Shown: positions 4,084 through 57,270 of the stretch, in pieces
How the letters are laid out: the number at the start of each line of letters is the position of its first letter
Position numbering within the stretch: position 1 is the stretch's first letter
Assembly: GCA_026168455.1 (NCBI GenBank)
Contig: CM047429.1
Span: forward strand, 1,973,370-2,037,369
Origin: Theocolax elegans
Taxonomy: Eukaryota; Arthropoda; Insecta; Hymenoptera; Cerocephalidae
Length of the DNA: 64,000 nt
Direction of reading: 5' to 3'
Translations under genes and position numbers: made by a program
Notes under the pieces: model-generated
The model's database searches: none
Told to the model about the DNA's origin: nothing
The model's input: the letters and a program-made list of their open reading frames with translations, nothing else

Positions 4084-4119
<36 letters not shown>

Positions 4120-5774
4120 GGGTGGTTCTCTGTGACATCGAAGATGAAAAAAATAAATATTGCTATAACTGTGGGAATATGTTTTAGAGGTAACCAGTAG
4201 TTCTCCTGAATTTTTTCAGATTTTTTCTGGGCCATTATTTTAAGTTACAGAGAGTCAAAGTTGACATTTTAGCACTTTTTTGCATTATATGCCCATTTTT
4301 ATAAATTTTTAGCTCCCAGGGGATGCATTTTTTACTAAAAACATAACTATGACTTTTTTTGTAAAATTTTCCGAACTTTTCATTAAAAATACTTTTAAAG
4401 ACATAAATATATGCTGTCACACTCTTGTAAGCCATTTAAACCTTAAATAGTGAAAATCAGCACTTCTGCTCCGGACTCTGGTAACCTAATACTGTCTAAA
4501 AGATGTCTTTTTATAGTCAGAAACTGCCTAAAAATTTCCAGAGTGGGTCTAAATCATTAAGATCACTTATGGTCAAAATATCCGGGAAAAGTGCCCGAAA
4601 TATTAATAGAAATGTATATTTGGTGCCTTATAACGATGAATCTATTAGCATGATCATTGCAAAAAAATTTGTGCACTTACCTTGGAGTGGTAGAAAAGTA
4701 TCTTCGCTTGTTTCAGTATCCATCTAATCCCCTGTAAGATGCTAAAAATACAAATATTATTATACAAATGTAAAAAATTAATTTTTAAACATTTATAATG
4801 CTGAATTTTTAGTTTTACATCCCTTACAAGAATTATAATACTAATCTGAAGGATTACTATAAATATATAAACATCATTATTACAATAACTGAATATACGT
4901 ATTTAATACAAAAGATATATAAATAAATCGGATATATAATTATAATGAATAATATGATAACGTGACAGTGACAAGTTTGTGAAATCTAAACTATGTATTC
5001 CTGAATAATAATAATAATAATGTTGATACTTTTATAGTAATCCTTGAGATTAGTATTATAATTCTTGTAAGGGATGTAAAACTAAAAATCCAGCATTATA
5101 AATGTTTAAAAAATAATTTTTTATAATTTTATAATAATATTTGTATTTTTAGCAGCTTACAGGGGATTAGATGGATACTGAAACAAGTGGAGATACTTTT
5201 CTACCATTCCAAGGTAAGTGCATAAATTTTTTTGCAATGATCATGCTACTAGATTCATCGTTATAAGGCAACAAATATACATTTCTATTAATATTTCGGG
5301 CACTTTTCCCGGATATTTTGACCATAAGTGATCTTAATGATTTAGACCCACTCTGGAAATTTTTAGGCAGTTTCTGACTATAAAAAGACATCTTTTAGAC
5401 AGTATTAGGTTACCAGAGTCCGGAGCAGAATTGCTGATTTTCACTATTTAAGGTTTAAATGGCTTACAAGAGTGTGACAGCCTACATTTATGTCTTTAAA
5501 AGTATTTTTAATGAAAAGTTCGGAAAATTTTACAAAAAAAGTCATAGTTATGTTTTTAGTGAAAAATGCATCCCCTGGGAGCAAAAAATTCATGAAAATG
5601 GGCATATAATGCAAAAAAGTGCTAAAATGTCAACTTTGACTCTCTGTAACTTAAAATAATGGCCCAGAAAAAATCTGAAAAAATTCAGGAGAACTACTGG
5701 TTACCTCTAAAACATATTCCCACAGTTATAGCAATATTTATTTTTTTCATCTTCGATGTCACAGAGAACCACCC
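4120..5774. mobile_element. Foldback element with about 745-bp inverted arms
   Basis: The left arm starts GGGTGGTTCTCTGTGACATC at 4120 and the right arm ends with its complement at 5774. The arms run to about 4862 and from about 5028 and are very similar over their length. As a result the same 74-codon frame appears at 4503-4727 (+) and 5167-5391 (-), and the same 66-codon frame at 4235-4435 (-) and 5459-5659 (+). The loop is about 165 bp and AT-rich. The element abuts a TA microsatellite (4084-4119). The duplicated short frames need not be coding. No transposase is present, so it is non-autonomous. Confidence 0.8.
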
Positions 5775-7714
5775 ATATACATATTTACGAACGAAATTTC
5801 ATTTTATTGCATATATTAAATTTCCTTCATAAATCGAGTTTGTGTTCCGCTTACTGAAAAGTATAGCAATTTTTAATTATACATTTCTCTCCGCGTACAT
5901 ATTAATTCGCGGTACGACAAAACGAACTCAAAACGCTTATTATGGGGAGAGGTTATACAGCACCATAAACAAGGTATTGTAGATACGGCGTAGCAAATGT
6001 GGAAAAAGTCTTACGATTACAAATACGACGGTCATCTTGCTCTTGTCTCCACCACGTCTTAGCGGGAGGTCTCTAGGTAGCTACCAGCATCAAGGCCTCG
6101 CGGGATGGGCTTCTACTACGCCCAGGCTCAGGGGGGATCCGGTGGACTATTCCCGAAGACTCTTAGATCAGCTTTCGCACTTGCCGGTTATAACGCTATT
6201 ACCGCAGAACTCTCGCCTTAACAAACGTAATTCCTCACTTACGAGCAGAATTCAACTAACTCGTCTTGTATCTCTCGCAAATTGGGATGTTTGTGCGAAA
6301 CTAGTCTTGTGACGGAAAGGTATAATGAGTAAGCATGTATCGCGTCTTCCGTCTCAATAGATTTATTTTCAAATATTGCATTTGTCGGTTTGGTGGGAGG
6401 AAGAATATTGACTATAATGACTTGTTAAGTAACTTTATACAATCATTAAAAATCGTTGTTTTTTAGTTATTTTCTTTAATTATAATTAATATTAATTTAA
6501 TATTAGTTTTATATCTAACAGCACTGATTGTCTATTATTTAAAGGGGAGGCCCTGGACAGGCGCCTCCCTTCTCCTCTCCCCCCTCTCATCAATCACCAT
6601 TACATAATATTGTTTCTATTTATACATGCAAATCAGAAGCTTCATTCACAAATTTAGATACATCTTTAGAAGTGAATACATTAGATTTATCGCTTCATAA
6701 CAACTACGCAGTTGTTTTAAATAATAATAAACTAATTTTCTGAATTTTAATAACTCTACATTATCGTAATTCGGAATTATACTTCTCAACATAAAATATT
6801 TCGAACACAATGTCAACAATTTATATCGTTTTGATAATTTTTCGAAATATACTAATAAAGCTATTTTAGATAACACAGTTGTATTTTGCGTTTTACGCTA
6901 CTTTTTGAAATCATTATAAACCATAGTGCACATCCATTTCAATCGTTCTAGTAATAAATTTAAACAAATTTCTTTACCCTTTTCCAATAACACCGGTACT
7001 TATGTATCCGAGTCAAAATCTGATACCTTAACCTGATGCATCTTGCGTATGATACGAATATAATTATTTATATTTACATTTACATCACATACACCCTTGT
7101 TTTGAATGGAATTTACGGATCACCTCTACCACCTATATGTGGGGATGTATATTTACTTTGCTTTTTCCTTTCCGATTTTTTTTCTACCGCCTCGCATTTG
7201 CCCGTATTTATGCTCAGTAGAAAGCAAAACCTACAAGTATATGAAAACATTCTGCTTGACAATTGGTGTACTAAAACATTCAGTTTGAGTATTTAGATAA
7301 CATTGTGTATACCTAAGTATCGAAATCGAATGTTATCCATACCTCCCGCATAATGTTGTAGAGTGAAAAAATATCTAATCTGTCCCGAAAGCTGCATGAG
7401 GATGAGTCACACACGCAAGTGCTTATGCAGCCAATGTTGCTTAACACTCGTGATCGATCGAGGTGCGTCTCCGCCACTCCGCTACTGCGTCGGTGTATGC
7501 TGAATATATTATTGAAAAACAAAAGTTCTGCCTAGTTGGCATGGACAAAGGAGATAAAACAAACTTTGCGACTAAATTCTGCTCTGAGGACAATCTTGTT
7601 TAATCCATGTTTCTCATTTCGATTTTTTATTAATATTTATGCTAAAAGTAACAAGATATCCATAGAAAAAAAAAGATTTTTCCCTTGTCTTTATTATTAC
7701 CCTCACTTCTTTGG
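5775..7714. other. No recognisable gene; AT-rich DNA with moderate-GC patches
   Basis: Nothing here matches a family I recognise. The sequence ACATATTTACGAACGAAA at 5780-5797 is also present near 1212-1229, so part may be a dispersed repeat. Patches at about 5990-6320 and 6540-6590 are GC-richer but carry only short frames. The open frames in this stretch look like chance. Confidence 0.4.
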
Positions 7715-13680: not shown

Positions 13681-13699
13681 TATATATATATATATATAT

Positions 13700-14647
13700 G
13701 GGCTATTTCACGTCAAGTGGTACGATGAAAATTTTAAATCGCTCCAAAATTTGAAAACAGGCTGGAAATATCTTTCAGAAGATAGAAATAAATTTTTAGG
13801 TGTTAAAAATAATTTGCCTGACAGTTATTCCACCATAAAAAATGGAAATTTTTCAATTTTTTAGAAAAATTTCTATTTTCAAAGCCATTTATCTCAAAAT
13901 CTATTGATTTTTTTGAAAAAATATTAGAGACAACTTTTGTTCAATATAATCTTTAGAACTTATCTACCTAGGTTACAATTCTTAATTTTAAAATCTCGAA
14001 GAGATAGGACTCCTGGAAATATTGAATATCAAAAAAAGGCGACCACGCCACAATCGATTTTGATCTAACACCGCTCAAAAGATCACATTTTTTGAGAGCT
14101 TTCAAATGGCGGTGGTTAGATTATTGGCCAAGACCGCTGGTGTAAGTTATACCCCATAAACCTCATAAAATCACTAATTTTCATGTATTTTAGGGCATAA
14201 CTTACACCAGCGGTCTTGGCCAATAATCTAACCACCGCCATTCGAAAGCTCTCAAAAAATGTGATCTTTTGAGCGGTGTTAGATCAAAATCGATTGTGGC
14301 GTGGTCGCCTTTTTTTGATGTTCAATATTTCTAAGTGCCCTGTTTCTTCGAGATTTTAAAATTAAGAATTGTAACCCAGGTAGGTAAGTTCTAAAGATTA
14401 TTTTGAACAAAAGTTGTTTTTAATGTTTTTTAAAAAAAATCAATAGATTTTGAGTCAAATGGCTTTGAAAATATAAATTTTTCTAAAAAATTGAAAAATT
14501 TCCATTTTTCATGGTGGAATAACTCTTAGGCAAATTATTTTTAACACCTAAAAATTTTTTTCTATCTTCTGGAAGATATTTCTAGCCTGTTTTCAAATTT
14601 TGGAGCGATTTAATATTTTCATCGTACCACTTGACGTGAAATAGCCC
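13700..14647. mobile_element. Foldback element with about 455-bp inverted arms
   Basis: The left end GGGCTATTTCACGTCAAGTG at 13700 is complementary to the right end at 14647. Arms extend to about 14157 and from about 14192 with few differences and a loop of about 35 bp, so a transcript would form a very long hairpin. TA microsatellites bound it on both sides (about 13681-13699 and 14648-14662). No protein is encoded. It is a separate family from the 4120 foldback, although both start GGG and both sit in TA tracts. Confidence 0.8.
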
Positions 14648-14677
14648 ATATATATATATATATGTGTGTATATATAT

Positions 14678-19328: not shown

Positions 19329-20400
19329 CAAAACACCTTCCAAGAAGGTGTCAATATTCGCAAGTATTTTATTCCAATCACAATTTTTAAATTGCAATCT
19401 ATTAAATAAATATTTTTTTTTTTTTAAACGTAATTACGTAACTTATAACTTATATGCACTTATAAAGTTTCATAAGTGTGTTCCTTTTGACGAATAAAAA
19501 ATTTGGAACAAAAGGGTCAGTAATAAAAAACAACTAGAAATTAAAGACTCATCATTTTCTACCTATTGTTATTTTAATTGGACATTTTATATATTTTTTC
19601 ATATATATTTTTCCATAAGTAGTTTTTGCAATAGAAAGTATTGAAATCAAAGCGGTATAATCGACAAGTATTTTTTACCATACCATAAATTTGTATTTCA
19701 ATTAATCATTTTTATTTTTGTGTGTTACATAAACTCCGCAAAAAGTTTCTACAATTGAAAGTACTGAAATCAAAATGGAATCGCCAAGTATTGTATCCAC
19801 GCATCAATGTATGGGAAGCGAGATTTAAAAATTTTTCGTCGTTTAAATTTGTTGAAACTTCTCTAACTTGTTTCAAGGAGTTCACATTTGAACCGTGATG
19901 ATTATCATCATTTATCAAATCCTCATTATTGCCAAGAAATATATTTATTATGTCAAAATCTTCATCCATTTACATAGTTGGAGAAATAAGTAAACAATTT
20001 TATAATATATTTATTTACATAAAATTAACTTCTTCAAAACTAATAAAACAGAGATTTATTTATCTCATTTTATTGCTTTTAAATAAAATAATACTTGCAC
20101 CACCGTTGGTTAAGTCTACTGATATATCTAGTGCTTTAAAACAATATGTATTTATGAACGCAAAATTTGATGTACAGTCAAGATAAAAAATAATTAGGGA
20201 ATGCGAAATTTGATCGAGAATATATTTAAAATGCAATAATATAAAAATAATGATAAAATATTATTTGAGAGGTTAAATTAGCTGCCTTTTAATTTCAATT
20301 TGAAAATATGTATTCATTTTTTGATGTGTTAATTAATTTATTAATGCCTTGTAGCTATGTACAGACCTCATGGGAATCATTACAAGTCATTTATACAAAT

Positions 20401-21691
20401 TTTACCTCTTATCTTATACCTTGACCTTTAGAGGGCCGGTGTTCTGAAAATTTGGCAATCGCATTATTCTATAAATGTGTATCTATTTATTGATTTATAT
20501 AAAAAAATTGATTTTTTTCGCCTGCTATTACAGGTCCTCTAAAGATTAAAGTATTTATAAAAGCCCTTGATACATATGATAAATATATGCAATATGCATT
20601 GATGCATTCTTAAATAAGAACCCAAATCAACGTGTGGTGCAAGTATTATTTTATTTAAAAGCAATAAAATGAGATAAATAAATCTCTGTTTTATTAGTTT
20701 TGAAGAAGTTAATTTTATGTAAATAAATATATTATAAAATTGTTTACTTATTTCTCCAACTATGTAAATGGATGAAGATTTTGACATAATAAATATATTT
20801 CTTGGCAATAATGAGGATTTGATAAATGATGATAATCATCACGGTTCAAATGTGAACTCCTTGAAACAAGTTAGAGAAGTTTCAACAAATTTAAACGACG
20901 AAAAATTTTTAAATCTCGCTTCCCATACATTGATGCGTGGATACAATACTTGGCGATTCCATTTTGATTTCAGTACTTTCAATTGTAGAAACTTTTTGCG
21001 GAGTTTATGTAACACACAAAAATAAAAATGATTAATTGAAAAAATTTTACCTCTTATCTTATACCTTGACCTTTAGAGGGCCGGTGTTCTGAAAATTTGG
21101 CAATCGCATTATTCTATAAATGTGTATCTATTTATTGATTTATATAAAAAAATTGATTTTTTTTCGCCTGCTATTACAGGTCCTCTAAAGATTAAAGTAT
21201 TTATAAAAGCCCTTGATACATATGATAAATATATGCAATATGCATTGATGCATTCTTAAATAAGAACCCAAATCAACGTGTGGTGCAAGTATTATTTTAT
21301 TTAAAAGCAATAAAATGAGATAAATAAATCTCTGTTTTATTAGTTTTGAAGAAGTTAATTTTATGTAAATAAATATATTATAAAATTGTTTACTTATTTC
21401 TCCAACTATGTAAATGGATGAAGATTTTGACATAATAAATATATTTCTTGGCAATAATGAGGATTTGATAAATGATGATAATCATCACGGTTCAAATGTG
21501 AACTCCTTGAAACAAGTTAGAGAAGTTTCAACAAATTTAAACGACGAAAAATTTTTAAATCTCGCTTCCCATACATTGATGCGTGGATACAATACTTGGC
21601 GATTCCATTTTGATTTCAGTACTTTCAATTGTAGAAACTTTTTGCGGAGTTTATGTAACACACAAAAATAAAAATGATTAATTGAAATACA
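20401..21691 (+). repeat. 645-bp tandem duplication, two units
   Basis: Unit 1 (20401-21045) and unit 2 (21046-21691) both begin TTTACCTCTTATCTTATACC and differ by little more than one T in a poly-T run. Each contains a TTAA-type MITE, the MDEDF frame and part of the palindrome arm. The junction at about 21041 joins ATTAATTGAAA to AAATTTTACC. Confidence 0.85.
20425..20545. mobile_element. TTAA-type MITE copy 2 (duplicated at 21071-21191)
   Basis: Ends CCTTTAGAGGGCCGGTGTTC and CAGGTCCTCTAAAGA are imperfect inverted repeats. They are flanked by TTGA (20421-20424, a one-base variant) on the left and TTAA (20546-20549) on the right. Same family as 12565-12677. The second copy at 21071-21191 was carried by the tandem duplication rather than being an independent insertion. 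Confidence 0.65.
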
Positions 21692-22101
21692 AATTTATGG
21701 TATGGTAAAAAATACTTGTCGATTATACCGCTTTGATTTCAATACTTTCTATTGCAAAAACTACTTATGGAAAAATATATATGAAAAAATATATAAAATG
21801 TCCAATTAAAATAACAATAGGTAGAAAATGATGAGTCTTTAATTTCTAGTTGTTTTTTATTACTGACCCTTTTGTTCCAAATTTTTTATTCGTCAAAAGG
21901 AACACACTTATGAAACTTTATAAGTGCATATAAGTTATAAGTTACGTAATTACGTTTAAAAAAAAAAAATATTTATTTAATAGATTGCAATTTAAAAATT
22001 GTGATTGGAATAAAATACTTGCGAATATTGACACCTTCTTGGAAGGTGTTTTGTAAGTTTATACAGCAATACTGCACATACAAGCAAGTGTTTATGCCGA
22101 T

Positions 22102-23265
22102 TTGAGGTGGCTGCATTATCGCCCTACAATACATTTTCACAGATCAAGAATATTACTTTATTTTTTTATTTTTAATATCATTTACGTTGACTGTGCTATC
22201 GTTGATTATACCGGTAATGAAATAGTTGATATTCTTCTTATTCTAGGAGAATGTAGAGGAAACTATAGAAGAGCAGCAAGATTGTATGGTGATCGCTTTC
22301 CAGAAAAAAGACATCTCAATGCCGCGGTTATACGAAACATTGCACTTCGTGGCCGACAAGGAAATTTCAGAAGGCAAAGGAGATCACGGGATGAAGAAGA
22401 CTTTGTAAATGATGCTCGCTTAATTGCTGTTGTAGCTATGGTATATTTAAATGTTGATGTTAGCTTACGTGAGATTGAAGTAACACTGGGAGTGTCAAGG
22501 TTTACTGCCAGTAGATATTTACGAAATGTAAATTATCATCCTTACCACATCACTCTGAATCAAAGTTTAACAGAAGCTGATTATCAGCAAAGGATTAATT
22601 TTTGCCAATGGGCTACACAACATATTAGAAACGATCAAAACTTCTTCAACTACGTAATGTTCAGTGATAAGGCTATATTTCAAAGTAATGGAATTCTAAA
22701 CCGCCATAATTCGCATTACTGGTCTCCGATTAATCCTCATTCGATGAGGGAGGTTGATCATCAGCATCGCTGGAGTGTGACGGTATGGTGTGGTGTTGTT
22801 AACGGATACTTCGTAGGACCTTATATTTTTGATCGTAACGTCAATGCACAAGTTTATCTACAATTACTTAGAGATGAACTTCCAGGTTTGCTAGAAAACG
22901 TTGATCTGAATACACGGGCGAAGATGTGGCTGCAACATAATGGTGCTCCACCGCATAACGCCAACATTGTTGTAAATTTTCTTTATGAGCAGTTCAACAA
23001 TAGGAGGATTGGAAGAAGAGGGCCCGTTGATTGGCCACCTAGATCACCGGATCTAACTTCACCTCATTTTTACGTATGGGGGTATTTAATAGGTGTGATG
23101 TACAATACTCAGCCAACTACAAGAGGTAATATGATTCAAAGAATAAGAAACGCCAGCGAAAACATTCCACGCCAAGTATTACTGAATACTATTAGGCACT
23201 TTCAAAGAAGAATTCAACTTTGTTTGCAAATAAATAGTGCCAGTTTTGAGCATCTTTTGCAATAA
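22102..23265 (+). pseudogene. Tc1/mariner-type (DD41D spacing) transposase with damaged catalytic triad
   Basis: The frame is open for 387 codons from a TTG at 22102; no suitable ATG is visible near the expected start. An N-terminal helix-turn-helix region (about residues 38-75, ECRGNYRRAARLYGDRFPEK) is followed by a DDE domain. The first catalytic Asp is present in MFSDKAIF (residue 189), but the usual Glu after it is Lys. The second (normally QQDG or similar) is Asn in LQHNGAPPH (residue 280). The third (normally SPDLTSLDF-like) is His in SPDLTSPHF (residue 322). The 41-residue gap between positions two and three matches the DD41D type. The protein should not catalyse transposition, and no terminal inverted repeats are evident around it. 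The open frame despite catalytic loss is either chance in a young dead copy or hints at non-catalytic retention. Confidence 0.85.
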
Positions 23266-23504: not shown

Positions 23505-24003
23505 AGGACGAAATTTATTAGCTGGCCCAACAAGAGAAGATTTAGCTTGATTAGCAAGTTCAAGGTCAATTTTAAGGTCAATTTTAAGGTCAATTTCAAG
23601 GTCAATTTCAAGGTCATCAGTAGTCGAATCCGTTTGAACTGAACAACTAATAATGAACAAATTTTTGCTTATCTTGCGTAGCTTACGCAATATTCCCACC
23701 GTTTAAGCTTAAAGGTTAGTGTTGACCTTAGCATGACCTTAGGTTCATTTTCATCCATGAACAAAAGATACTATCTGGACGTAAACTTTTCCGCTCTTTC
23801 CGATTCCGGGGTAAAAAATAGGGGTTCCCATTGAAAAAAAACAGAGTTAACCTTGAAAAAACCATTAAGGTCAAGTTCAAGGTGTATTTTAAGGTCATCA
23901 TCAGATGTCCTTCTCCAAACTCAATAACATTTATCTGAGACATTGTTTGAAAAAAAGTCAAATTCTAAAGTTATCTTCGTGTATTTTTTAAAATAACACA
24001 CCC

Positions 24004-27750: not shown

Positions 27751-30700
27751 GACAGAGCAGGTCGGGTCGGGAACGTTAAATCATCTAACTCATTCAACAT
27801 TTTTCATACTAATATTAATCGCTTAAAAACTCATTTTTCATCTATCGAAGCTCTTGTTCTTCCTGAATCCCACGATGTCATAGCCATCACGGAAACCTTC
27901 CTTACTGAAAGCGATTCCTCTGAAATTCTTCAATTACCAGGCTATGCTCTGTATCGGTTGGATCGTGTAGGTAAGGAGGGTGGTGGTGTGGCGGCGTATG
28001 TTCGGAATGGGCTTACTGTGAGCATCATAGCTCACTCTGATCCTGTCTTCTCCAACGCCCCCGAATTTCTTATTTTGCGTGTATTAAACAAAACGGTGGC
28101 GTTGGCGTTGGCAGTGGTGTATCGTAGACCTTCTGCTGCTTACCCTACGGAGTTCTTTGATGTTCTTGCTGACATTCTCCCCAATTATAAACATGTTATT
28201 ATTACTGGCGATTTCAACATTGATATGTCATCATCTAATGCTGCAGCGAATATGCTGATGGGGAGTTTGTCGGCTCTAGGCCTTTTCCTTATTCCATCAG
28301 AACCTACGCACCACGCTGTGACGTCGGCGGGATCATCTCATACATGGTTGGATCTTTTCGTGGTTCGTGAACCAGTGCCTGACTATGTTTATAATAAATC
28401 TGATTCTCCCTTTGCGGCGGGGCATGATGCCATTAGTATCTCCCTTATGATCAATAAGACGCCGGACCAAGTCAAGAGGTTCTGGGTTAGGGACTTGGAG
28501 AAGATCAACCTCTTTCAACTCGCCACCACCTTCACTTCATTTCTGGATCATTCACATAATTCATTACTTCAATCTTCAGCATTTTCAGATTCAACTTCAT
28601 CTACCTGGCCCGACCAGCCCACACCTTTACGATCTTTTTCATCTAGTCATTTCGACCTTCTTTCATCATCGTTATCCTCCCTCTGTAGTTCCATTTCATC
28701 AACGTTCAATATCTTAGCACCATCCAAATTAGTTACAATTAAAACAAAGCACAAGCCATGGGTTACTCTAGAAATAAAAACCATTATTAAGGCTAAGAAT
28801 AATGCTTTTAAGCAATTTCGTAATTCTGGTTTGTTTTCTGACTACAATGTATATAAGCAGTTGAGGAATAGAGCTAAGAACACTATAAATTCTAGTAAAT
28901 TTCGCTATTTACAAGTAAAGCTAGACAATGAAAAGGACTCTACTAAGTCCTGGAAACTACTCAAAAATATGGGTCTGGGCATGAAGTCCAATCCTTCGCC
29001 ATTAAAATACTTTACAATTCATCAACTCAACAATTACTATGCTTCTATTTCAAATCATTCTCCACCACTCTCTATTCATTCATTCGCATCCATCATTTCT
29101 AATATTTGTCACTTTCCAACATCTCCTTCATTCAGCTTTCTACCAGTATCAACCAAAAAAGTTCAGCGGACTATTGCTAGAGCTTCTTCCAAAGCGTCGG
29201 GCATCGATGGCATATCTGTCAATATGTTAAAACTGTTGGAACCACAAATTACCCTACCATTAACGGAACTCTTTAATGGTATGCTTTCTGCCGGATGGTT
29301 CCCCGATTGCTGGAAGAAGGTCGTGCTGTTTCCGTTGGCGAAGTCGAGCAGGTTGGAGTCGTGTTCGGACACAAGACCTATTGCCAAGCTTTGTGAGATC
29401 TCAAAGGTTTTGGAGAGATTGGTACATGATCAGCTGGTTGAGTACCTCGAATCTAATCATTTGTTAATTGACAGGCAAGCGGGCTTTCGAAAGGGCCATA
29501 GTACTCAATCAGCTCTTCTGGGGGTGTTAGATGATGTTAGAAGAGCAATTGACTCCAGAATGATTACGATCCTAGTGCTATTTGATTTCTCCAAGGCCTT
29601 TGATACAGTCCCACACGATAAGCTCATCCGTAAGCTGGGCGATATCGGCTGTACAGATTTGGTACTTAACTGGTTTTACAGATACCTTGTAGGTCGCAAG
29701 CAGGCCGTCGTGGATGAGGTTGGCACGTTTTCTGATTGGCTGGAGGTGAATGCTGGTGTGCCTCAGGGCAGTGTTCTGGGTCCGATCTTATTTTCCATTT
29801 TCATTAATGATTTTCCTAAGGTTTTAAAGTATAGCAATCATATGTTGTTTGCCGATGATGCCCAGGTTTACCATTCGTTCTTTCCATCTGACTTCAACGC
29901 TGGTGTTCAACGCGTATCTCACGATGCGAATGCGATCGCAAATTGGGCATTGGAAAATGGCCTCTCACTGAATGGTAAAAAGACGAAGGTAATGATCCTG
30001 GGCAGTCAGGCTTTTATTTCGCGTATCAACCTGAACACTGCCCCGAGGGTTAGGCTGGGTAATGACTTGCTGGATTACGAGAATGTGGTTAAATCTCTGG
30101 GGTTGCTGATCACCCCTACCCTCGATTGGTCTAAGCAGGTCATGTCAATCTCTAGGCGCGTTCACGGTGTTCTGCATTCTCTCCGCTTTTACAATAAATC
30201 ACTATCGATCAAGCTTCGCAAGAATCTTGTTGAAACGCTTATTTTTCCCCATCTAGACTATGCGTGCGCAGTGTATAATGATGTAGATCAGACTAAAAAT
30301 ACCAAGCTTCAAAGATTGTTGAATGCCTGTGTCAGATTTGTATGGGGTAACATAGCGAGACGTGAGCACGTCACCCCGTTTAGACTTGGTCTAAAATGGC
30401 TGTCGGTTGAGTCCAGGCGTTCATATCTCATCGGCTCCCTAGCATTTAATATTATTGCTCACAATTCACCCTCATATCTTGCTGATCATTTCACCTTGTT
30501 TAATACCCCCGCCCAAAATCCTCGCTCTTCCTCCCGTCATCCTCCCAAATCGCTCATGTATCTTCCTCCGCGCACAGAAGCCTTAAATAGGTCATTTATC
30601 ATCACCTCCACCCGCATTTTGAATCAGCTTCCTGTCATCAACTTTAACCCTTCATGCTTCAACGAATTCAAAACCATTCTATTTAACCATTTGTCTGGGC

Positions 30701-30780
30701 TCGACCAAACAGCCTGGTCCTTGCGGGTAGTGTCTGAGGGCTTATTGCCGAGGTCCATCCCTCACCTGGATGCTGCGTAA
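27751..30780 (+). CDS. LINE ORF2: endonuclease and reverse transcriptase
   Basis: The frame is open from the codon after the ORF1 TGA to TAA at 30778-30780, 1009 codons. An apurinic-type endonuclease occupies about residues 15-235, with HTNIN near 19-23, AITET near 50, TGDFN at 152-156 and GHD near 224. Reverse transcriptase follows at about 440-760, with LFDFSKAFDTVPH near 611, GVPQGSVLGP near 670 and FADDAQVY at 700. A thumb and C-terminal region ends the protein. The catalytic residues I can see are intact. No in-frame ATG precedes the endonuclease, so translation may depend on readthrough of the TGA or on reinitiation. Target-primed reverse transcription is the expected role. The 5' limit given is the first codon after the stop, not a proven start. 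Confidence 0.88.
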   Translation, partial: DRAGRVGNVKSSNSFNIFHTNINRLKTHFSSIEALVLPESHDVIAITETFLTESDSSEILQLPGYALYRLDRVGKEGGGVAAYVRNGLTVSIIAHSDPVFSNAPEFLILRVLNKTVALALAVVYRRPSAAYPTEFFDVLADILPNYKHVIITGDFNIDMSSSNAAANMLMGSLSALGLFLIPSEPTHHAVTSAGSSHTWLDLFVVREPVPDYVYNKSDSPFAAGHDAISISLMINKTPDQVKRFWVRDLEKINLFQLATTFTSFLDHSHNSLLQSSAFSDSTSSTWPDQPTPLRSFSSSHFDLLSSSLSSLCSSISSTFNILAPSKLVTIKTKHKPWVTLEIKTIIKAKNNAFKQFRNSGLFSDYNVYKQLRNRAKNTINSSKFRYLQVKLDNEKDSTKSWKLLKNMGLGMKSNPSPLKYFTIHQLNNYYASISNHSPPLSIHSFASIISNICHFPTSPSFSFLPVSTKKVQRTIARASSKASGIDGISVNMLKLLEPQITLPLTELFNGMLSAGWFPDCWKKVVLFPLAKSSRLESCSDTRPIAKLCEISKVLERLVHDQLVEYLESNHLLIDRQAGFRKGHSTQSALLGVLDDVRRAIDSRMITILVLFDFSKAFDTVPHDKLIRKLGDIGCTDLVLNWFYRYLVGRKQAVVDEVGTFSDWLEVNAGVPQGSVLGPILFSIFINDFPKVLKYSNHMLFADDAQVYHSFFPSDFNAGVQRVSHDANAIANWALENGLSLNGKKTKVMILGSQAFISRINLNTAPRVRLGNDLLDYENVVKSLGLLITPTLDWSKQVMSISRRVHGVLHSLRFYNKSLSIKLRKNLVETLIFPHLDYACAVYNDVDQTKNTKLQRLLNACVRFVWGNIARREHVTPFRLGLKWLSVESRRSYLIGSLAFNIIAHNSPSYLADHFTLFNTPAQNPRSSSRHPPKSLMYLPPRTEALNRSFIITSTRILNQLPVINFNPSCFNEFKTILFNHLSGLDQTAWSLRVVSEGLLPRSIPHLDAA

Positions 30781-31939: not shown

Positions 31940-33000
31940 TATTTCCGTCCATAAATAATGTTAACCATGCTGATGTAGTAAAAGTATCTACAGATACTGT
32001 TGTTAGAATAGCTGCTACATACGACATGGAATGGACAACAAGAGGATCTGGCCGCGAATATGATAGTTGGATTTTTATCTGGAAGAGTTTCATATGTGTC
32101 AAATAATCGGAAATGTCGCATGTGCGATTAAGGGCATGATTCTATAGATCATGATCGCAGACAAAATTTTGAAAGTTCAGCGAAGGCGATGGAACCTGCG
32201 GCTGCTGCCGAACTGGCTAATAAAAATCCAATTTTTGCAGCGTGTAATGTCGAGCAGGAAGTAATCATGAAGTGATTAAACACTCATACAAAAATCACAC
32301 AAGCAAAGGTGTGACAAATGAACTATATAAAATAGAAAAAGACTATAAAGAGCTTACTGCGAATTCAATCAAATATCTTAAGCGATGTTTTGATTATTGT
32401 GTATCGCAGATTGCTGGCGATGCAATGGGAATGGCTACTGCAATAAAAAATATTCCATTTCATTGTTTTAAAAAACATTTTAATTGCGGTAGTTGGTGTG
32501 GCTACCAACAAAATCCGGAATCATATAAGCACGTAACAATAGTCTATTTAACTTCTTAGCTTCCAAAAGTAATAGATTTGTAGACGGAGTGTCTAGCAAT
32601 GCAAACGAAAGTTTAAATATGACAATAGCTAGTAAAGTTCCAAAATCACGCTTTTATGGAGGATCAACATCGCATGATTTCCGGTTAGCATTTGCAATTA
32701 ATAAGAAGAATGGAGGAGAAGAGTTTATTTACAAATTATCTATAAATCTGTGCTTACCTGTAGGAAATCACACTAAAATGTATTATAATGTACTACATTC
32801 TTATGCTAAAGAGATATATATGAAATCGTTAACCAAAGACTTTAAAAAGAAGCGGTTACTCCTAAAAAAAGGAAAACTGAATTCAGACACAAAAAAGAAA
32901 TCCTTGAAGGTCCTGAAACTTATCAATCGGATGTAGGACTTTTAACTGCGGATGCTCCTCCGATTTTAGATGTAATTTATAATATCTGCAATCGAAAAAT
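31940..33000 (+). pseudogene. Mutator-like transposase, central part
   Basis: Protein-like segments in shifting frames read VSTDTVVRIAATYDMEWTTR (about 31980), RVSYVSNNRKCRMCD (about 32085), ESSAKAMEPAAAAELANKNP (about 32170) and NHTSKGVTNELYKIEKDYKE (32290). IPFHCFKKHFNCGSWCGYQQ follows at about 32453, then SSNANESLNMTIASKVPKSR from about 32594. These match the order of the Mutator-like transposase core in insects. Just before NHEVIKHS (about 32262) the region that normally carries the acidic GDDDS-type motif is missing, so the catalytic centre is lost. Frame breaks occur near 32080, 32262 and 32555. The piece has the same orientation as 24095-25181 and probably belonged to the same copy. 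Confidence 0.7.
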
Positions 33001-33747
33001 AGTAATTTTGATTTAGAAAATAGTGGATTTGCAAAAGACGCAGATATTTTACAAATCGCTGCCAAATGTGGCGATAAATTATTTTCAATTTATGTAACAC
33101 CAACTCAAAATATTAATGTGAAGGCAAGTGAAGTTACTGGCTTACGCATAGGTGCAGGAAAATTATTATACCATGGAGGTTTCGTCTGTTATTTTGTCAG
33201 AAGCTTTACAAGAATTTTATAAATTTTTGTGTGAGTTACAAGATAAATGTATTTTAGTTGCTCATAATTGTAATTTTGGTCGGCCTAAGTTACTCGCAGC
33301 AATCAAAAAAACTTATTTTCTGAATCATTATCAGGCTGTTGTGTATGGATTCGGTGACATATTATCTCTCATAAAAAAGCCAAAGGGTCTATTAAAAAAG
33401 GAGAAAATAAATTGGAATATTTAGCAAATTTCTATTGTATACAGACCATTGACGCACACAATGCTTTAAATGACGTCATAATGCTCGAAAAAGTAACCTT
33501 AAAGCTGGGAATTTTACCGCAAACTATAATTAACAGTACAATGACATGGGAAGAAGCAATCAAACAAAATAATTATATGAGTGAATTACCAATCAACTTA
33601 AAGAAATTGGACAAACTAAATTCTTGTACTTCTTTAGCTACTCGAAAAAAGATAATTGCTGCTCATATTTCCTATGAATTGATAATCGAGGCGTTCAAAG
33701 AAAATGAATTGTATGGTAGTAGAATGGCTATGGTAGTAGAATGGTAG
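33001..33747 (+). pseudogene. DEDDh exonuclease domain linked to the Mutator-like element
   Basis: Following the transposase core, FDLENSGFAKDADILQIAAK (about 33007) is an exonuclease motif I with Asp and Glu present. LVAHNCNFGRPKLLAAIKK (about 33257) is motif II, with Gly where Asp is usual. IDAHNALNDVIMLEKVTLKL (about 33449) is motif III with the DEDDh His and Asp. Two frameshifts (near 33165 and 33405) separate these parts. The family resembles DnaQ/RNase T-like 3'-5' exonucleases. It appears to be the C-terminal domain of the transposon protein rather than a separate gene, since orientation and spacing are continuous. The copy is inactive as written. Confidence 0.7.
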
Positions 33748-33794
33748 AAATGGTAGTAGAATGGTAGAAAAGCTATGGTAGTAGAATGGTAGAA
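33720..33794 (+). repeat. Short GTAGTAGAATGGTAGAAAT repeats
   Basis: Several imperfect tandem copies of ATGGTAGTAGAATGGTAGAA join the end of the exonuclease relic to the satellite array. Confidence 0.7.
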
Positions 33795-33992
33795 ATTATA
33801 CGGCATTAGATCACAAAAATGCCTTATGTGACAATATTCTGACGATTAAGACATTAGTTCTATGTAAGTGCGTTAGGGGGCTACCTGTTAATATGTGGCA
33901 CTTAATAAAGTTTGCTATCGGTAGGGCATATATACCCTATGTCTTCCTCGTCGGGATAGAGCTGATTTTCAAAAATTTGTATATCTTTCATC

Positions 33993-34059
33993 TGTATCTA
34001 CAGACGAGATGCCTGGACTCTACTGATGAGCCCACCAGGCATACTCAGGGCGAAATACA
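33993..34059 (+). ncRNA. Type III hammerhead ribozyme, unit 1
   Basis: Stem III pairs TGTAT (33993-33997) with ATACA (34055-34059). Predicted cleavage is after C33998 (AUC triplet). Stem I pairs TACAG (33999-34003) with CTCTA (34018-34022), with one C-C mismatch. The invariant CTGATGA is at 34023-34029. Stem II pairs GCCC (34030-34033) with GGGC (34048-34051), followed by GAA and A15.1. Loop I contains ATGCCTGG (34009-34016) and loop II CCAGGCAT (34035-34042), exact complements that could kiss. All core nucleotides fit the hammerhead consensus. Cleavage itself is inferred. Confidence 0.87.
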
Positions 34060-34536
34060 TTAAATTTTCTTTTCTTTTCTTATATTTTTTTTTCCATCTT
34101 CTTAAGTTTTTATTAATTTTATATTACAATCAATTAAATTATATATATATTTTTTTTGACTTAGCTTGTCTTAGTCTTTTTTCTAACACTCATCCTGTGA
34201 GGTTTCTATAGTGGCTGGTATTAATACAGTCCGCCTTACTTGAGTTGTGAGGAATATTTCTTTGGCTTGTGGAGATCAATAAATTCATTTATCATATAAC
34301 TTATAATATAAACAAGCAATAAATTCACGAATTTTAAAATTATACGGCATTAGATCACAAAAATGCCTTATGTGACAATATTCTGACGATTAAGACATTA
34401 GTTCTATGTAAGTGCGTTAGGTGGCTACCTGTTAATATGTGGCACTTAATAAAGTTTGCTATCGGTAGGGCATATATACCCCATGTCTTCCTCGTCGGGA
34501 TAGAGCTGATTTTTAAAAATTTGTATATCCTTCATC

Positions 34537-34603
34537 TGTATCTAGAGACGAGATGCCTGGACTCTACTGATGAGCCCACCAGGCATACTCAGAGCGAAAT
34601 ACA
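34537..34603 (+). ncRNA. Type III hammerhead ribozyme, unit 2
   Basis: Same architecture as unit 1: stem III TGTAT/ATACA, predicted cleavage after C34542, CTGATGA core. Stem I TAGAG/CTCTA is perfect here. The 3' strand of stem II reads GAGC instead of GGGC, giving one C-A mismatch. The complementary 8-nt loop segments are retained. Confidence 0.85.
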
Positions 34604-35448
34604 TTAAATTTTCTTTTCTTTTCTTATATTTTTTTTTTCATCTTCTTAAGTTTTTATTAATTTTATATTACAATCAATTAAATTTTATATATTTTTTTTG
34701 ACTTAGCCTGTCTTAGTCTTTTTTCTAACACTCATCCTGTGAGGTTTCTATAGTGGCTGGTATTAATACAGTCCGCCTTACTTGAGTTGTGAGGAATATT
34801 TCTTTGGCTTGTGGAGATCAATAAATTCATTTATCATATAACTTATAATATAAACAAGCAATAAATTCACGAATTTTAAAATTATACGGCATTAGATCAC
34901 AAAAATGCCTTATGTGACAATATTCTGACGATTAAGACATTAGTTCTATGTAAGTGCGTTAGGTGGCTACCTGTTAATATGTGGCACTTAATAAAGTTTG
35001 CTATCGGTAGGGCATATATACCCCATGTCTTCCTCGTCGGGATAGAGCTGATTTTTAAATATTTTTTTTGACTTAGCCTGTCTTAGTCTTTTTCTAACAC
35101 TCATCCTGTGAGGTTTCTATAAGTGGCTGGTATTAATACAGTCCGCCTTACTTGAGTTGTGAGGAATATTTCTTTGGCTTGTGGAGATCAATAAATTCAT
35201 TTATCATATAACTTATAATATAAACAAGCAATAAATTCACGAATTTTAAAATTATACGGCATTAGATCACAAAATGCCTTATGTGACAATATTCTGACGA
35301 TTAAGACATTAGTTCTATGTAAGTGCGTTAGGGGGCTACCTGTTAATATGTGGCACTTAATAAAGTTTGCTATCGAGTAGGGCATATATACCCCATGTCT
35401 TCCTCGTCGGGATAGAGCTGATTTTCAAAAATTTGTATATCTTTCATC

Positions 35449-35515
35449 TGTATCTAGAGACGAGATGCCTGGACTCTACTGATGAGCCCACCAGGCATAC
35501 TCAGAGCGAAATACA
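35449..35515 (+). ncRNA. Type III hammerhead ribozyme, unit 4
   Basis: Identical in layout to the unit 2 ribozyme: stem III TGTAT (35449-35453) with ATACA (35511-35515), cleavage expected after C35454, perfect stem I, one C-A mismatch in stem II, loops I and II complementary over 8 nt. Confidence 0.85.
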
Positions 35516-35887
35516 TTAAATTTTCTTTTCTTTTCTTATATTTTTTTTTCATCTTCTTAAGTTTTTATTAATTTTATATTACAATCAATTAAATTTTATA
35601 TATTTTTTTTGACTTAGCTTGTCTTAGTCTTTTTTCTAACACTCATCCTGTGAGGTTTCTATAGTGGCTGGTATTAATACAGTCCGCCTTACTTGAGTTG
35701 TGAGGAATATTTCTTTGGCTTGTGGAGATCAATAAATTCATTTATCATATAACTTATAATATAAACAAGCAATAAATTCACGAATTTTAAAATTATACGG
35801 CATTAGATCACAAAAATGCCTTATGTGACAATATTCTGACGATTAAGACATTAGTTCTATGTAAGTGCGTTAGGGGGCTACCTGTTA

Positions 35888-35943
35888 ACGAGATGCCTGG
35901 ACTCTACTGATGAGCCCACCAGGCATACTCAGAGCGAAATACA
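35888..35943 (+). ncRNA. Truncated hammerhead, unit 5
   Basis: The core CTGATGA, stem II and the GAAATACA strand are present. A deletion joining CTACCTGTTAA to CGAGATGCC has removed the 5' strand of stem III, the cleavage site and the 5' strand of stem I. It cannot self-cleave in cis. Confidence 0.8.
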
Positions 35944-36163
35944 TTAAATTTTCTTTTCTTTTCTTATATTTTTTTTTCATCTTCTTAAGTTTTTATTAAT
36001 TTTATATTACAATCAATTAAATTTTATATATTTTTTTTGACTTAGCTTGTCTTAGTCTTTTTTCTAACACTCATCCTGTGAGGTTTCTATAGTGGCTGGT
36101 ATTAATACAGTCCGCCTTACTTGAGTTGTGAGGAATATTTCTTTGGCTTGTGGAGATCAATAA

Positions 36164-37035
36164 ACGCATTTATCATATAATATATAAAAATAATATTAAT
36201 TTATTATTTATCTTGTTGTTTATATACACTATTTTTTCCCATTATAAAAGTTATATAATGTACCGTGTATTACATATGAAATATGTATCACAATTTCAAA
36301 TATCGCGCGAGTTTTGCAACGTTGCCGCTAGTACATGTAATGGAGGTTAATGTCGTCAACATAGCGGTTTTCGAAAAATAATTTATTAATTATATATGTT
36401 AGAAGTACCAAATCGATGTTTTTATGATAGTATAATGTTTTAGATTCTACTTAAATGTATATATAAATTTTTACAAGATTTGTTTGTCAGGTAATGTATA
36501 ATTTAAATAAGAAGATCAAGGAAATCCGATTCTCCATAAGGCTCCGTGTTAAACCGCACCATATTATTTTATTAATAACTCATTATATAGGTACCCAAAC
36601 CTACTCAAAAATTTAACTGAAGACTTTCTATATAATAATAAGCTTAAATAAATTTTTGTATTAAAATCTGTTTGTTAATTACAAATCAGATAAACCTCCT
36701 TAAGTTCGAGAGAGAGCGGACGAGTCCGCGATTCGAATAGTCACGCTGCAACCGCTTCCGCTCGCGTAGTTTTGCGCTCGCCCATGCGCTTACATTATAG
36801 CTGGCCCAACTTGCATGCACACCATATTATATTGTTTAATATAGAAAATTTATATTTTCTCTCCGCATTCACAGACTTTAGACTATCACATATTAAATAG
36901 GAAACTCCAAACGTAATATTTTTTTTTAAAATAAAGATAAATATTAATTAATAATTATAAATATATGTAATATAGTCAAAATATGGCTGCATTAAAAAAT
37001 AAATAAAAATAGTATATTATAAAGACTATTTATTT
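36164..37035. other. AT-rich stretch, nothing recognised
   Basis: AT-rich DNA with one GC-richer patch around 36710-36800 and no gene, RNA or repeat that I can define. Confidence 0.4.
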
Positions 37036-37266
37036 AAGGGGTTAGGTTTTTTTTCGATTTTGATGAACAAACCATGTATGTTTTTATTTGGCAATGTTTC
37101 GATGGATATCCTCATCCTCATCAGGCTATACCTTTATCTACCTCACCTCACCTGCTCACCTTTATAAAGGTATAGCCTGATGAGGATGAGGATATCCATC
37201 GAAACGTCGTCAAATAAAAACATACATGGTTTGTTCATTAAAATCGAAAAAAACCTAATCCCTTTA
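37036..37266. mobile_element. Foldback MITE with CTGATGAG...CGAAACG motif
   Basis: Arms of about 100 bp run from AGGGGTTAGGTTTTTTTTCG to its complement CGAAAAAAACCTAATCCCTT, with a loop of about 25 bp. Each arm contains CTGATGAG, a GATG/CATC stem and CGAAACG, on opposite strands. This resembles a hammerhead core, but no complementary stem I flanks it, so I regard it as hammerhead-like only. Confidence 0.75.
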
Positions 37267-37659
37267 AACATACTGCATGGACGATAAAATTATTCTACAA
37301 GACTATTTATTATTTTAAAAAATAATTTATTTCAAGATTTTTATAGAATATAGATAAATGGTGATTTTATTTATATATTTTAATAATATAGAAAGAATAA
37401 AATTTCAAATTATTTAGCGGTATCATTTATAACAGGTTGTGGTATCCTTTGATGCAGACAATTAAAATGATAATACTATTGTGTTCGAACAGTGAAAAAA
37501 ATAGATTTTGTCGCTTAATGTAAACAATTGCCATAATATTAATTTTATGTTGAAACAAATATGATTTAATTAATTTCTTGAAACATAAGAATTGTGACGT
37601 TGTAAAACGTACAACGCACAAGTACATGCACATGACTTATATTTACAAGTCATGTGCAT
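37267..37659. other. AT-rich spacer
   Basis: No gene recognised. A small hairpin ATGCACATGACTT.../AAGTCATGTGCAT is centred near 37640. Confidence 0.4.
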
Positions 37660-56089: not shown

Positions 56090-57270
56090 CGTATATTTGG
56101 CCATCTCTATTAAGGTCTGACTCCTCCTCTTACTTCTTGGCTGATTTTAAGGACATCCAGGCCTCTCTGGCATCGTCAGTTAAGGGTCTTTCAGAAAGCT
56201 TGGTTGGACGGCGTCTGTTTTCATGCAGAAATTGTAGCAGTTCTGTCCGATTGTCAAGACCCAGTGTCACATAAACTTTATGAAACTTGAAAAACCATCA
56301 TCGAAGATACCTGCAGCAATATATATTGCGGTATCAAGCAAGTGTTTGCCACTAGAGCACGATTTTGGAGCCATAGACCAGACAGTCGCATTAAATCTTT
56401 CATTACTATTTTGTGTAAAGCAGCCTAAACAACGGGTAAGTAAATCGTCACTACTTAATTCTTCTAACTTTAGTAGCTTGAGCCTTTGGCCAAGAACACC
56501 ATGAAGTCTCGGTCGATCGTCAGTAGATAATTTGTGGTCCAGCGTTGCGTAGATTTCATTGCACATTTTCTCTACTGAATCACGATTACTACGAACCGCT
56601 AAACTATAATAAATTGCTAACTTGTCTATGAGCTTGCCAGTAAGCATATGTTTTCCAATGGTATCAGTTTTAGTTTTCCAAATTCGCAAATTCGCAAGTT
56701 TTGCAATACTTAGATGTCACTAAAACATCGACTACTTTGCCAGTATACCAGCCGATAAGTGAAACAAACCCGTAAAGAGACGAAAAACGACGCTTCCTCC
56801 ATGCACCATGACCAGATACAGTAATGCCATTTGAATCGTCAGTTTTTCCATGTTCATTTTTAGCTAAAGTTTCCATATTGAGCTTACAAACAGCTTCTGC
56901 TTCAATAGTTATTTTGTTAACAACTGTATCGTAGAACGATTGAAAAATACAATTCAATCTTTTTCCTAGTAATCGTATGGCAAGAACAATTTTACGATTA
57001 ATATCATATCCTTTCTTAATAAATGTACAACTAGAAATACTAATCTGATCAGAGTTTTTACAGGAAATCACAATTTTGTAACCCAAGCCTCGATTTCCAC
57101 TTTCGGTGAATGTTACATCACACTTGTATTTTTTATAAAATTTAGAATTTAGTAACTGAAGGTCTTCATTTACTTCCAAATTATCGATGTTTACATCTGA
57201 CAATTTTCTAGCCGATGTAGTAACGTTCTCGAGATTTGGTTGCTCCAGTTAATAACGATTTTGCGGCAGT
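56090..57270 (-). pseudogene. Mutator-like transposase relic, second copy
   Basis: The minus strand carries the N-terminal half at 57203-56670: FTESGNRGLGYKIVISCKNS (zinc-type), KGYDINRKIVLAIRLLG, then NGITVSGHGAWRKRRFSSLY, GKVVDVLVTSKYCKTCEF. Then, in another frame from about 56689, it carries LTGKLIDKLAIYYSLAVRSN, RCLGCFTQNSNERFNATVWS and AGIFDDGFSSFIKF. A further C-terminal piece extends to about 56090. About 200 residues between CEF and LTGKL are missing, including the GDGD-type catalytic motif. The order matches the insect Mutator-like domain family. No exonuclease domain is attached, unlike the 31.9-33.7 kb copy. Confidence 0.8.

Follow-up and report, generated by a model that had tools for sequence, protein, structure and literature searches.

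A dispersed retrozyme-like element with a predicted pseudoknotted type III hammerhead in Theocolax elegans, probably copied by Penelope-like machinery

Hammerhead ribozymes have been described in several kinds of repeat that bear on the sequence reported here, and what follows refers to the available parts of the papers cited. For the animal non-LTR retrozymes, PMC7229834 leaves open what mobilises them, names Penelope-like elements (PLEs) as a strong candidate, and assigns type III hammerheads mostly to plants. PLEs have inverted pLTRs, target duplications of 8–10 bp and an optional 31-bp tail on one pLTR; solo pLTRs occur, and in Penelope pLTRs acting in trans mobilise other sequence (PMC3846280). 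Two adjacent start sites for reverse transcription explain a PLE tail of 30–40 bp, and the main template of a PLE was uncleaved RNA (PMC11167929). Hammerheads occur in PLEs (PMC11167929) and are given as minimal type I (PMC7229834). Pseudoknotted hammerheads in general are treated in PMC3088659.

We studied a 64,000-nucleotide stretch of Theocolax elegans DNA, here called the window, and conclude that it probably contains a single damaged copy of a retrozyme that is non-autonomous and copied by PLE machinery, with a unit of ~541 nt and a pseudoknotted type III hammerhead. Like the animal retrozymes of PMC7229834, the element consists of short, non-coding, low-GC tandem units with one hammerhead each, has target duplications of >4 bp and shares its genome with PLEs. 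Those retrozymes are ~170–400 nt long with a type I hammerhead, whereas the unit here is of 541 nt and its hammerhead is of type III with paired loops; its arms are opposed, with one outer end of each of two kinds (A and B, below), and the word 'inverted' is absent from the available text of PMC7229834. With the PLEs of PMC3846280 and PMC11167929 it has in common opposed arms, short duplications, a one-sided tail of ~30–45 nt, 5' truncation and a hammerhead; it differs in that no ORF was seen, in the type III hammerhead, and in having no sequence in common with the two PLEs that we examined. The plant LTR retrozymes (PMC4918200, PMC7229834) also have a type III hammerhead, and the 541-nt unit is near their 600–800 nt, but the element is of low GC, has duplications of 11–15 bp rather than 4 bp, and has opposed arms. 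The pDo500 repeat of Dolichopoda cave crickets, described as satellite DNA (PMC2837043), is likewise an insect repeat of ~500 bp with a hammerhead per unit, a likeness drawn from its description only. Our search of the open-access full-text literature, by title and start of the abstract, found no paper describing the element.

The closest match in ribozyme architecture is to the type III pseudoknotted hammerheads of HDV-like RNAs and of termite and fly genomes (PMC7936874), which share the 5-bp first part of helix I and the Watson-Crick pairing of loops 1 and 2. The loop pairing is 8 bp here against ~4 there and stem II 4 bp against 6, the extra helix I hairpin is absent, and the motif belongs to a multicopy element rather than standing isolated. 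The structure search for HDV-like hammerheads in PMC7936874 reported, in the text available, none in hymenopterans, and with the element a predicted pseudoknotted hammerhead of type III would be part of an insect retroelement present in many copies, and this in an order from which that search had none of the HDV-like kind.

An earlier note on this DNA had described five head-to-tail units of about 541 bp. Head-to-tail repeats do extend over 33793–36187, but only three of them are 541–544 bp long, since units 3 and 5 carry deletions. Positions within the unit are given below as q, with q1 at 34337, in unit 2.

33793..36187, + strand: whole array, forming the '+' arm of a retrozyme-like element that is dispersed in the genome, with no opposed '-' arm adjoining it.
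33793..34336, + strand: unit 1, full length, 544 bp, found by BLAST with unit 2 as query.
34337..34878, + strand: unit 2, full length, 542 bp; reference unit.
34879..35248, + strand: unit 3, 370 bp; an internal deletion took out the ribozyme.
35249..35789, + strand: unit 4, full length, 541 bp, found by BLAST with unit 2.
35790..36187, + strand: unit 5, 398 bp, with an internal deletion; last of the array.

The full-length units are ~98% identical to one another, the monomer has a GC content of 0.318, and the deletion in unit 5 differs from that in unit 3. On its left side the array starts at q1, beside a degenerate 20–25-bp repeat (33712–33796), and in unit 5 it reaches the element end B, ...ATCATATAA, at ~36180. 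Because neither a '-' arm nor a target duplication was found, the window copy is probably incomplete.

Each of the three full-length units contains a hammerhead, with CTGATGA...GAAA, AUC before the predicted cut and three stems, at exactly the positions that had been noted before. Beyond that, our analysis adds the loop-loop pairing, the genome-wide dispersal, the inverted arms and the target duplications.

33993..34059, + strand: type III hammerhead copy 1, predicted cut between 33998 and 33999; C.C mismatch in stem I.
34537..34603, + strand: type III hammerhead copy 2, predicted cut between 34542 and 34543; C.A mismatch in stem II.
35449..35515, + strand: type III hammerhead copy 3, predicted cut between 35454 and 35455; C.A mismatch in stem II.
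35888..35943, + strand: hammerhead remnant in unit 5, still with its core and loops; a deletion has removed the cleavage site together with the 5' strands of both stem III and stem I.
34009..34016, + strand: loop 1 strand ATGCCTGG of copy 1, complementary to 34035–34042.
34035..34042, + strand: loop 2 strand CCAGGCAT of copy 1, complementary to 34009–34016.

The three copies have the core CUGAUGA...GAAA, a UH cleavage site and the open helix III of the type III class; 13 of 14 stem pairs form in each, and in none are the stems perfect throughout. Within loops 1 and 2, both 14 nt long, ATGCCTGG and CCAGGCAT are perfect Watson-Crick complements over 8 bp, and a contact between them, that is, a pseudoknot, is predicted from the sequence. 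A hammerhead descriptor run over both strands of the window returned four matches, all on the + strand and all in the array, the fourth being unit 5, whose broken motif was matched by way of a makeshift stem. The bare CTGATGA...GAAA pattern has seven matches in the window, against 1.08 expected.

The earlier note had proposed a covariance-model search as a check, and its outcome falls short of Rfam's cut-off. At the gathering score Rfam has no match in the window; at a relaxed threshold RF00008 (type III) falls on all three copies with 24.9–25.1 bits (E 0.036–0.041), while its gathering cut-off is 48.5 bits. Even family-typical copies stay under the cut-off, scoring 29.1–32.8 bits at three family loci. 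We attribute these scores, as a matter of judgement, to the loops being long and paired. Folding programs that allow no pseudoknot turn the loop 1 and loop 2 strands into a hairpin, which is the predicted minimum fold (−19.8 to −20.3 kcal/mol), and the hammerhead fold without the pseudoknot is weak (−1.2 to −1.7 kcal/mol). Viroid-like self-pairing of the unit circle was not notable (z −1.2 for the + strand, −1.8 for the − strand).

Across the genome the exact intact 62-nt ribozyme occurs 391 times (211 + 180), while its reversed control occurs 0 times, which strengthens the earlier proposal of a type III hammerhead in a retrozyme-like repeat. The full core, stems I and II and the predicted pseudoknot are present together in 82 of 127 motif-spanning copies, with stem III pairing at 5/5 positions in 53 of these 82 and at 4/5 in 29; in some genomic units the motif is no longer present. 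Stems I and II are perfect in the two commonest motif sequences (32 and 28 of the 127), and the mismatches in the window are therefore departures from the family form. Copy-to-copy substitutions per cell are 0.0147 in the ribozyme, 0.0130 in the rest of the unit and 0.0200 in the core alone. Conservation of the ribozyme is thus no higher than that of the remaining unit sequence. Drift of the copies once inserted would lead one to expect this, but it means that conservation alone lends the ribozyme no support.

Matches to the unit number at least 186 in 657,985,991 bases of the genome, with clusters on each of contigs C1–C7. We analysed the best matches among those listed, which gave 37 loci besides the window (38 in all) and 42 clusters that are not all independent, as L051–L053 are one duplicated stretch and L054 comprises two insertions sharing a left flank. 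The duplicated stretch, G000:C3:413674-441930, holds several near-identical two-armed copies with shared left flanks (L051–L053 and the ribozyme matches between them) and has carried the element along. Arms are opposed in 26 of the 42 clusters (25 '-+' and one '-+-+'), and the other 16, including the window copy, have matches on one strand only. Exact flank repeats of 11–15 bp border 20 of the 42 clusters, compared with 6 of 1714 mispaired flanks; the remaining 22, the window copy among them, have no duplication of ≥11 bp. Two loci, L010 and L057, are single, 5'-truncated arms with a duplication. Read by eye, ORFs belonging to other retrotransposons enclose the insertions at L057 and L050, and the large ORFs in L057, L034 and L050 resemble those of other retrotransposons at the insertion sites. 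At L047 two unit pieces are separated by a 2.5-kb gap containing a repeated sequence (L047:4125-5031) that is open both ways (290 and 298 codons) and not of the PLE kind. Copies elsewhere were sought with 3 patterns in viral contigs and with 1 pattern in GTDB genomes, and there were 0 matches.

The outer ends of the arms are fixed at two places. Read outward, end A is ...GAATTTTCAAA at q545, equal to q3 of the next unit, and end B is at q505; the two lie 40 nt apart in the unit, each at the same distance from the start of a copy of CAATAAATTCA.

34819..34829, + strand: first copy of CAATAAATTCA, at q483; end B (q505) is 22 nt after its start.
34859..34869, + strand: second copy of CAATAAATTCA, at q523; end A (q545) is 22 nt after its start.

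Each of the 17 clusters in which both ends were classed has one A end and one B end, and 14 of the 17 have a duplication; this count leaves out 25 of the 42 clusters, where one side is a 5' end or was not classed by the script.

The arms hold up to five full units together with partial ones (L034, L060) and are truncated on the 5' side at scattered places. We collected 66 inner ends, leaving out 13 same-strand breaks and ends at q5 or below. Seventeen of them fall at q435–465, where ~4 would be expected if they were uniform (three of the 17 come from L051–L053), and local stems are predicted in this interval, mostly with probability >0.5. Around the predicted cleavage site, at q200–214, there are 3 of the 66 (~2 expected), and we rejected arm ends at that site as a trace of cleavage. 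The insertions carry no direct trace of a cleaved linear template and, as inner ends are not enriched at the cleavage site, the cleaved linear monomer is not usually the template; the multi-unit arms are more readily explained by a circular or multimeric RNA. Units diverge by 1.25% within an arm, 1.62% between the arms of one locus and 2.54% between loci. Variants are mixed at >10 sites in five loci (L032, L034, L042, L044 and L060), a pattern easier to reconcile with multimers, nested insertion or exchange than with one monomer circle.

The same genome contains PLEs. The GIY-YIG domain has at least 98 genomic matches, seven of them in open frames of >800 aa, and several form opposite-strand pairs a few kb apart. 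We examined two PLE insertions. In the first (on C6), which has a GIY-YIG C-terminus, the arms are identical over 371 bp and a 12-bp duplication is flush with the right arm and 29 nt off the left arm; in the second (on C4), the arms are 99.7% identical over 706 bp and an 11-bp duplication is flush on the left and 45 nt off on the right. Mispaired controls for the two duplications gave 7 and 5 bp. The element and these two insertions, which were selected as pairs of opposite-strand GIY-YIG matches, follow the same plan of opposed arms, duplication length and one-sided tail (40 nt for the element, 29 and 45 nt for the PLEs). One genome thus allows the scars left by a ribozyme repeat to be compared directly with those of two PLE insertions, and the two sets agree in these features. 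The element has the variable short duplication, opposed arms and one-sided tail (as the 40-nt offset) of a Penelope-type insertion, whereas for the ORF with reverse transcriptase and GIY-YIG domains that marks a PLE proper, a PLE C-terminus used as query had no match in the 38 loci with ~1.5 kb of flanks. Because two PLE insertions of the same genome bear the same signature, we infer, by analogy, that PLE proteins may copy the element in trans. A cell-free PLE assay exists, according to the available text of PMC11167929, and the link between PLEs and the element is therefore directly testable.

A cycle that would account for these scars begins with transcription of the tandem units, whose transcripts would self-cleave after AUC and before the following U. 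Monomers might then be ligated into circles, or uncleaved multimers might serve directly as template. A PLE reverse transcriptase-endonuclease would nick the two target strands 11–15 nt apart, as the observed target duplications suggest, and copying would begin at two fixed sites 40 nt apart in the unit RNA, one per nick, in keeping with the observed positions of the ends. The template would be copied, over several units in the arms where we observe them, with stops often at predicted RNA stems, and the two arms would join head to head, in the arrangement that is seen. A more specific version of this cycle, which we put forward only tentatively, is that the PLE reverse transcriptase-endonuclease copies directly from a circular ribozyme RNA of ~541 nt: each nick would prime its own site, 22 nt past the start of a CAATAAATTCA copy, and the enzyme would make as many as several turns of the circle before the arms join head to head. 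If this is true, Hymenoptera would have a mobile system of two parts, type III retrozymes and PLEs.

The alternative that survives best, although we consider it unlikely, is that the unit is the pLTR of a PLE family, the arrays being solo or tandem pLTRs and the ORF-bearing copies being rare, old or outside our sample. A PLE would still mobilise it, but the unit would be part of that PLE and not a separate retrozyme. Such an origin would accord with the solo and trans-acting pLTRs of PMC3846280 and with the hammerheads that PLEs carry (PMC11167929); the first of our PLEs (L065) has its own CTGATGA...GAAA after the ORF, at L065:600-635 (G000:C6, ~24256600), where the match is to the core letters only, and Rfam at E≤1 found no hammerhead in the PLE pieces L065–L067. 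Against this, the C-terminus of the L065 PLE, used as a tblastn query at E≤1, had no match in the 38 loci with ~1.5 kb of flanks, no PLE ORF occurs in the 2.5-kb gap of L047, and, in a by-eye comparison among the matches listed, 0 of the 98 GIY-YIG places are within 30 kb of the listed clusters. The ribozyme unit and the two PLEs examined share no sequence, and the PLE hammerheads reported in the available text of PMC7229834 are minimal type I, not type III.

It is very unlikely that the hammerhead is coincidental, that is, an 8–11-bp hairpin whose loop happens to hold the core, as might be suggested by the hairpin being the predicted minimum and by the Rfam scores under the cut-off. In 2.28 Gb of order-2 Markov sequence (one strand), the hammerhead descriptor gave 1059 matches, of which 53 have at least 13 of 14 stem pairs, as do the three window copies, here taken as one event. 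An 8-bp helix between loops 1 and 2 is found in 0 of these 1059 chance matches, and one of 7 bp in three. Moreover, the commonest genomic sequences mend both window mismatches, so that stems I and II become perfect.

A decayed Mutator-like transposase (32248–33747, + strand; PF20700, E 9e-12) lies directly 5' of the window array. Among the matches listed, its relatives with species names are seven, all from ants and chalcid wasps, as suits a hymenopteran host, and a second Mutator piece is found at 56670–57245 on the − strand. After the transposase come pieces that weakly resemble an Exuperantia-type RNase H/exonuclease domain (E 0.014–0.016, below the cut-off), and the ORF at 33358–33744 has no homologues at E 0.001. 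A by-eye likeness between the left end of the unit and an exonuclease gene was discarded as a sign of origin: 706 of 2000 shuffles score as well, and the BLASTP E is 7.

The position of this transposase, together with the opposed arms and target duplications, would agree with a foldback-type DNA transposon that has tandem arrays as its terminal inverted repeats and might be mobilised by the flanking Mutator-like enzyme, an explanation to which we give very little credence. Outer ends A and B differ and are not mirror images, 5' truncation is scattered and single truncated arms exist, and the intact ribozymes would be unexplained. Mutator target duplications are 8–9 bp, against 11–15 bp here. 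Scarcely credible, finally, is the idea that unequal exchange spread a satellite array in which the ribozyme is a passenger: 'tandem satellite' had been the main description in the earlier note, and the near-identical tandem window units with block deletions and the locally duplicated cluster on C3 (L051–L053) agree with it, but the family is not confined to local arrays free of insertion scars, and its dispersed insertions with fixed ends, target duplications and opposed arms in 26 of 42 clusters make it untenable as the sole explanation; the simple satellite reading was dropped owing to the target duplications, and unequal exchange may reshape single arrays.

Several other features of the window were recorded alongside the retrozyme-like array. 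At 37033–37268 there is a palindromic element whose 105-nt arms are 91% complementary around a 26-nt loop; its weak miRNA-like Rfam matches (50 and 39.6 bits, below the cut-offs) are probably due to the hairpin shape. Two CTGATGA...GAAA matches at 37097 and 37177 lie inside this palindrome and were rejected as hammerheads, having by eye no U-H before stem I; another match to the pattern is at 23594 on the minus strand. The stretches 4105–5787 and 13684–14663 match their own reverse complements at 93% over ~1.7 and 1.0 kb and are either large palindromes or elements of the foldback kind. Direct and inverted repeats of 426–784 bp with 98.8–99.6% identity are nested in 19329–22053; this recent complex rearrangement lies immediately upstream of a Tc1/mariner-like transposase ORF (22057–23265). 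Finally, 27751–30780 is a 1009-codon ORF with endonuclease and reverse transcriptase domains, possibly an intact non-LTR retrotransposon.
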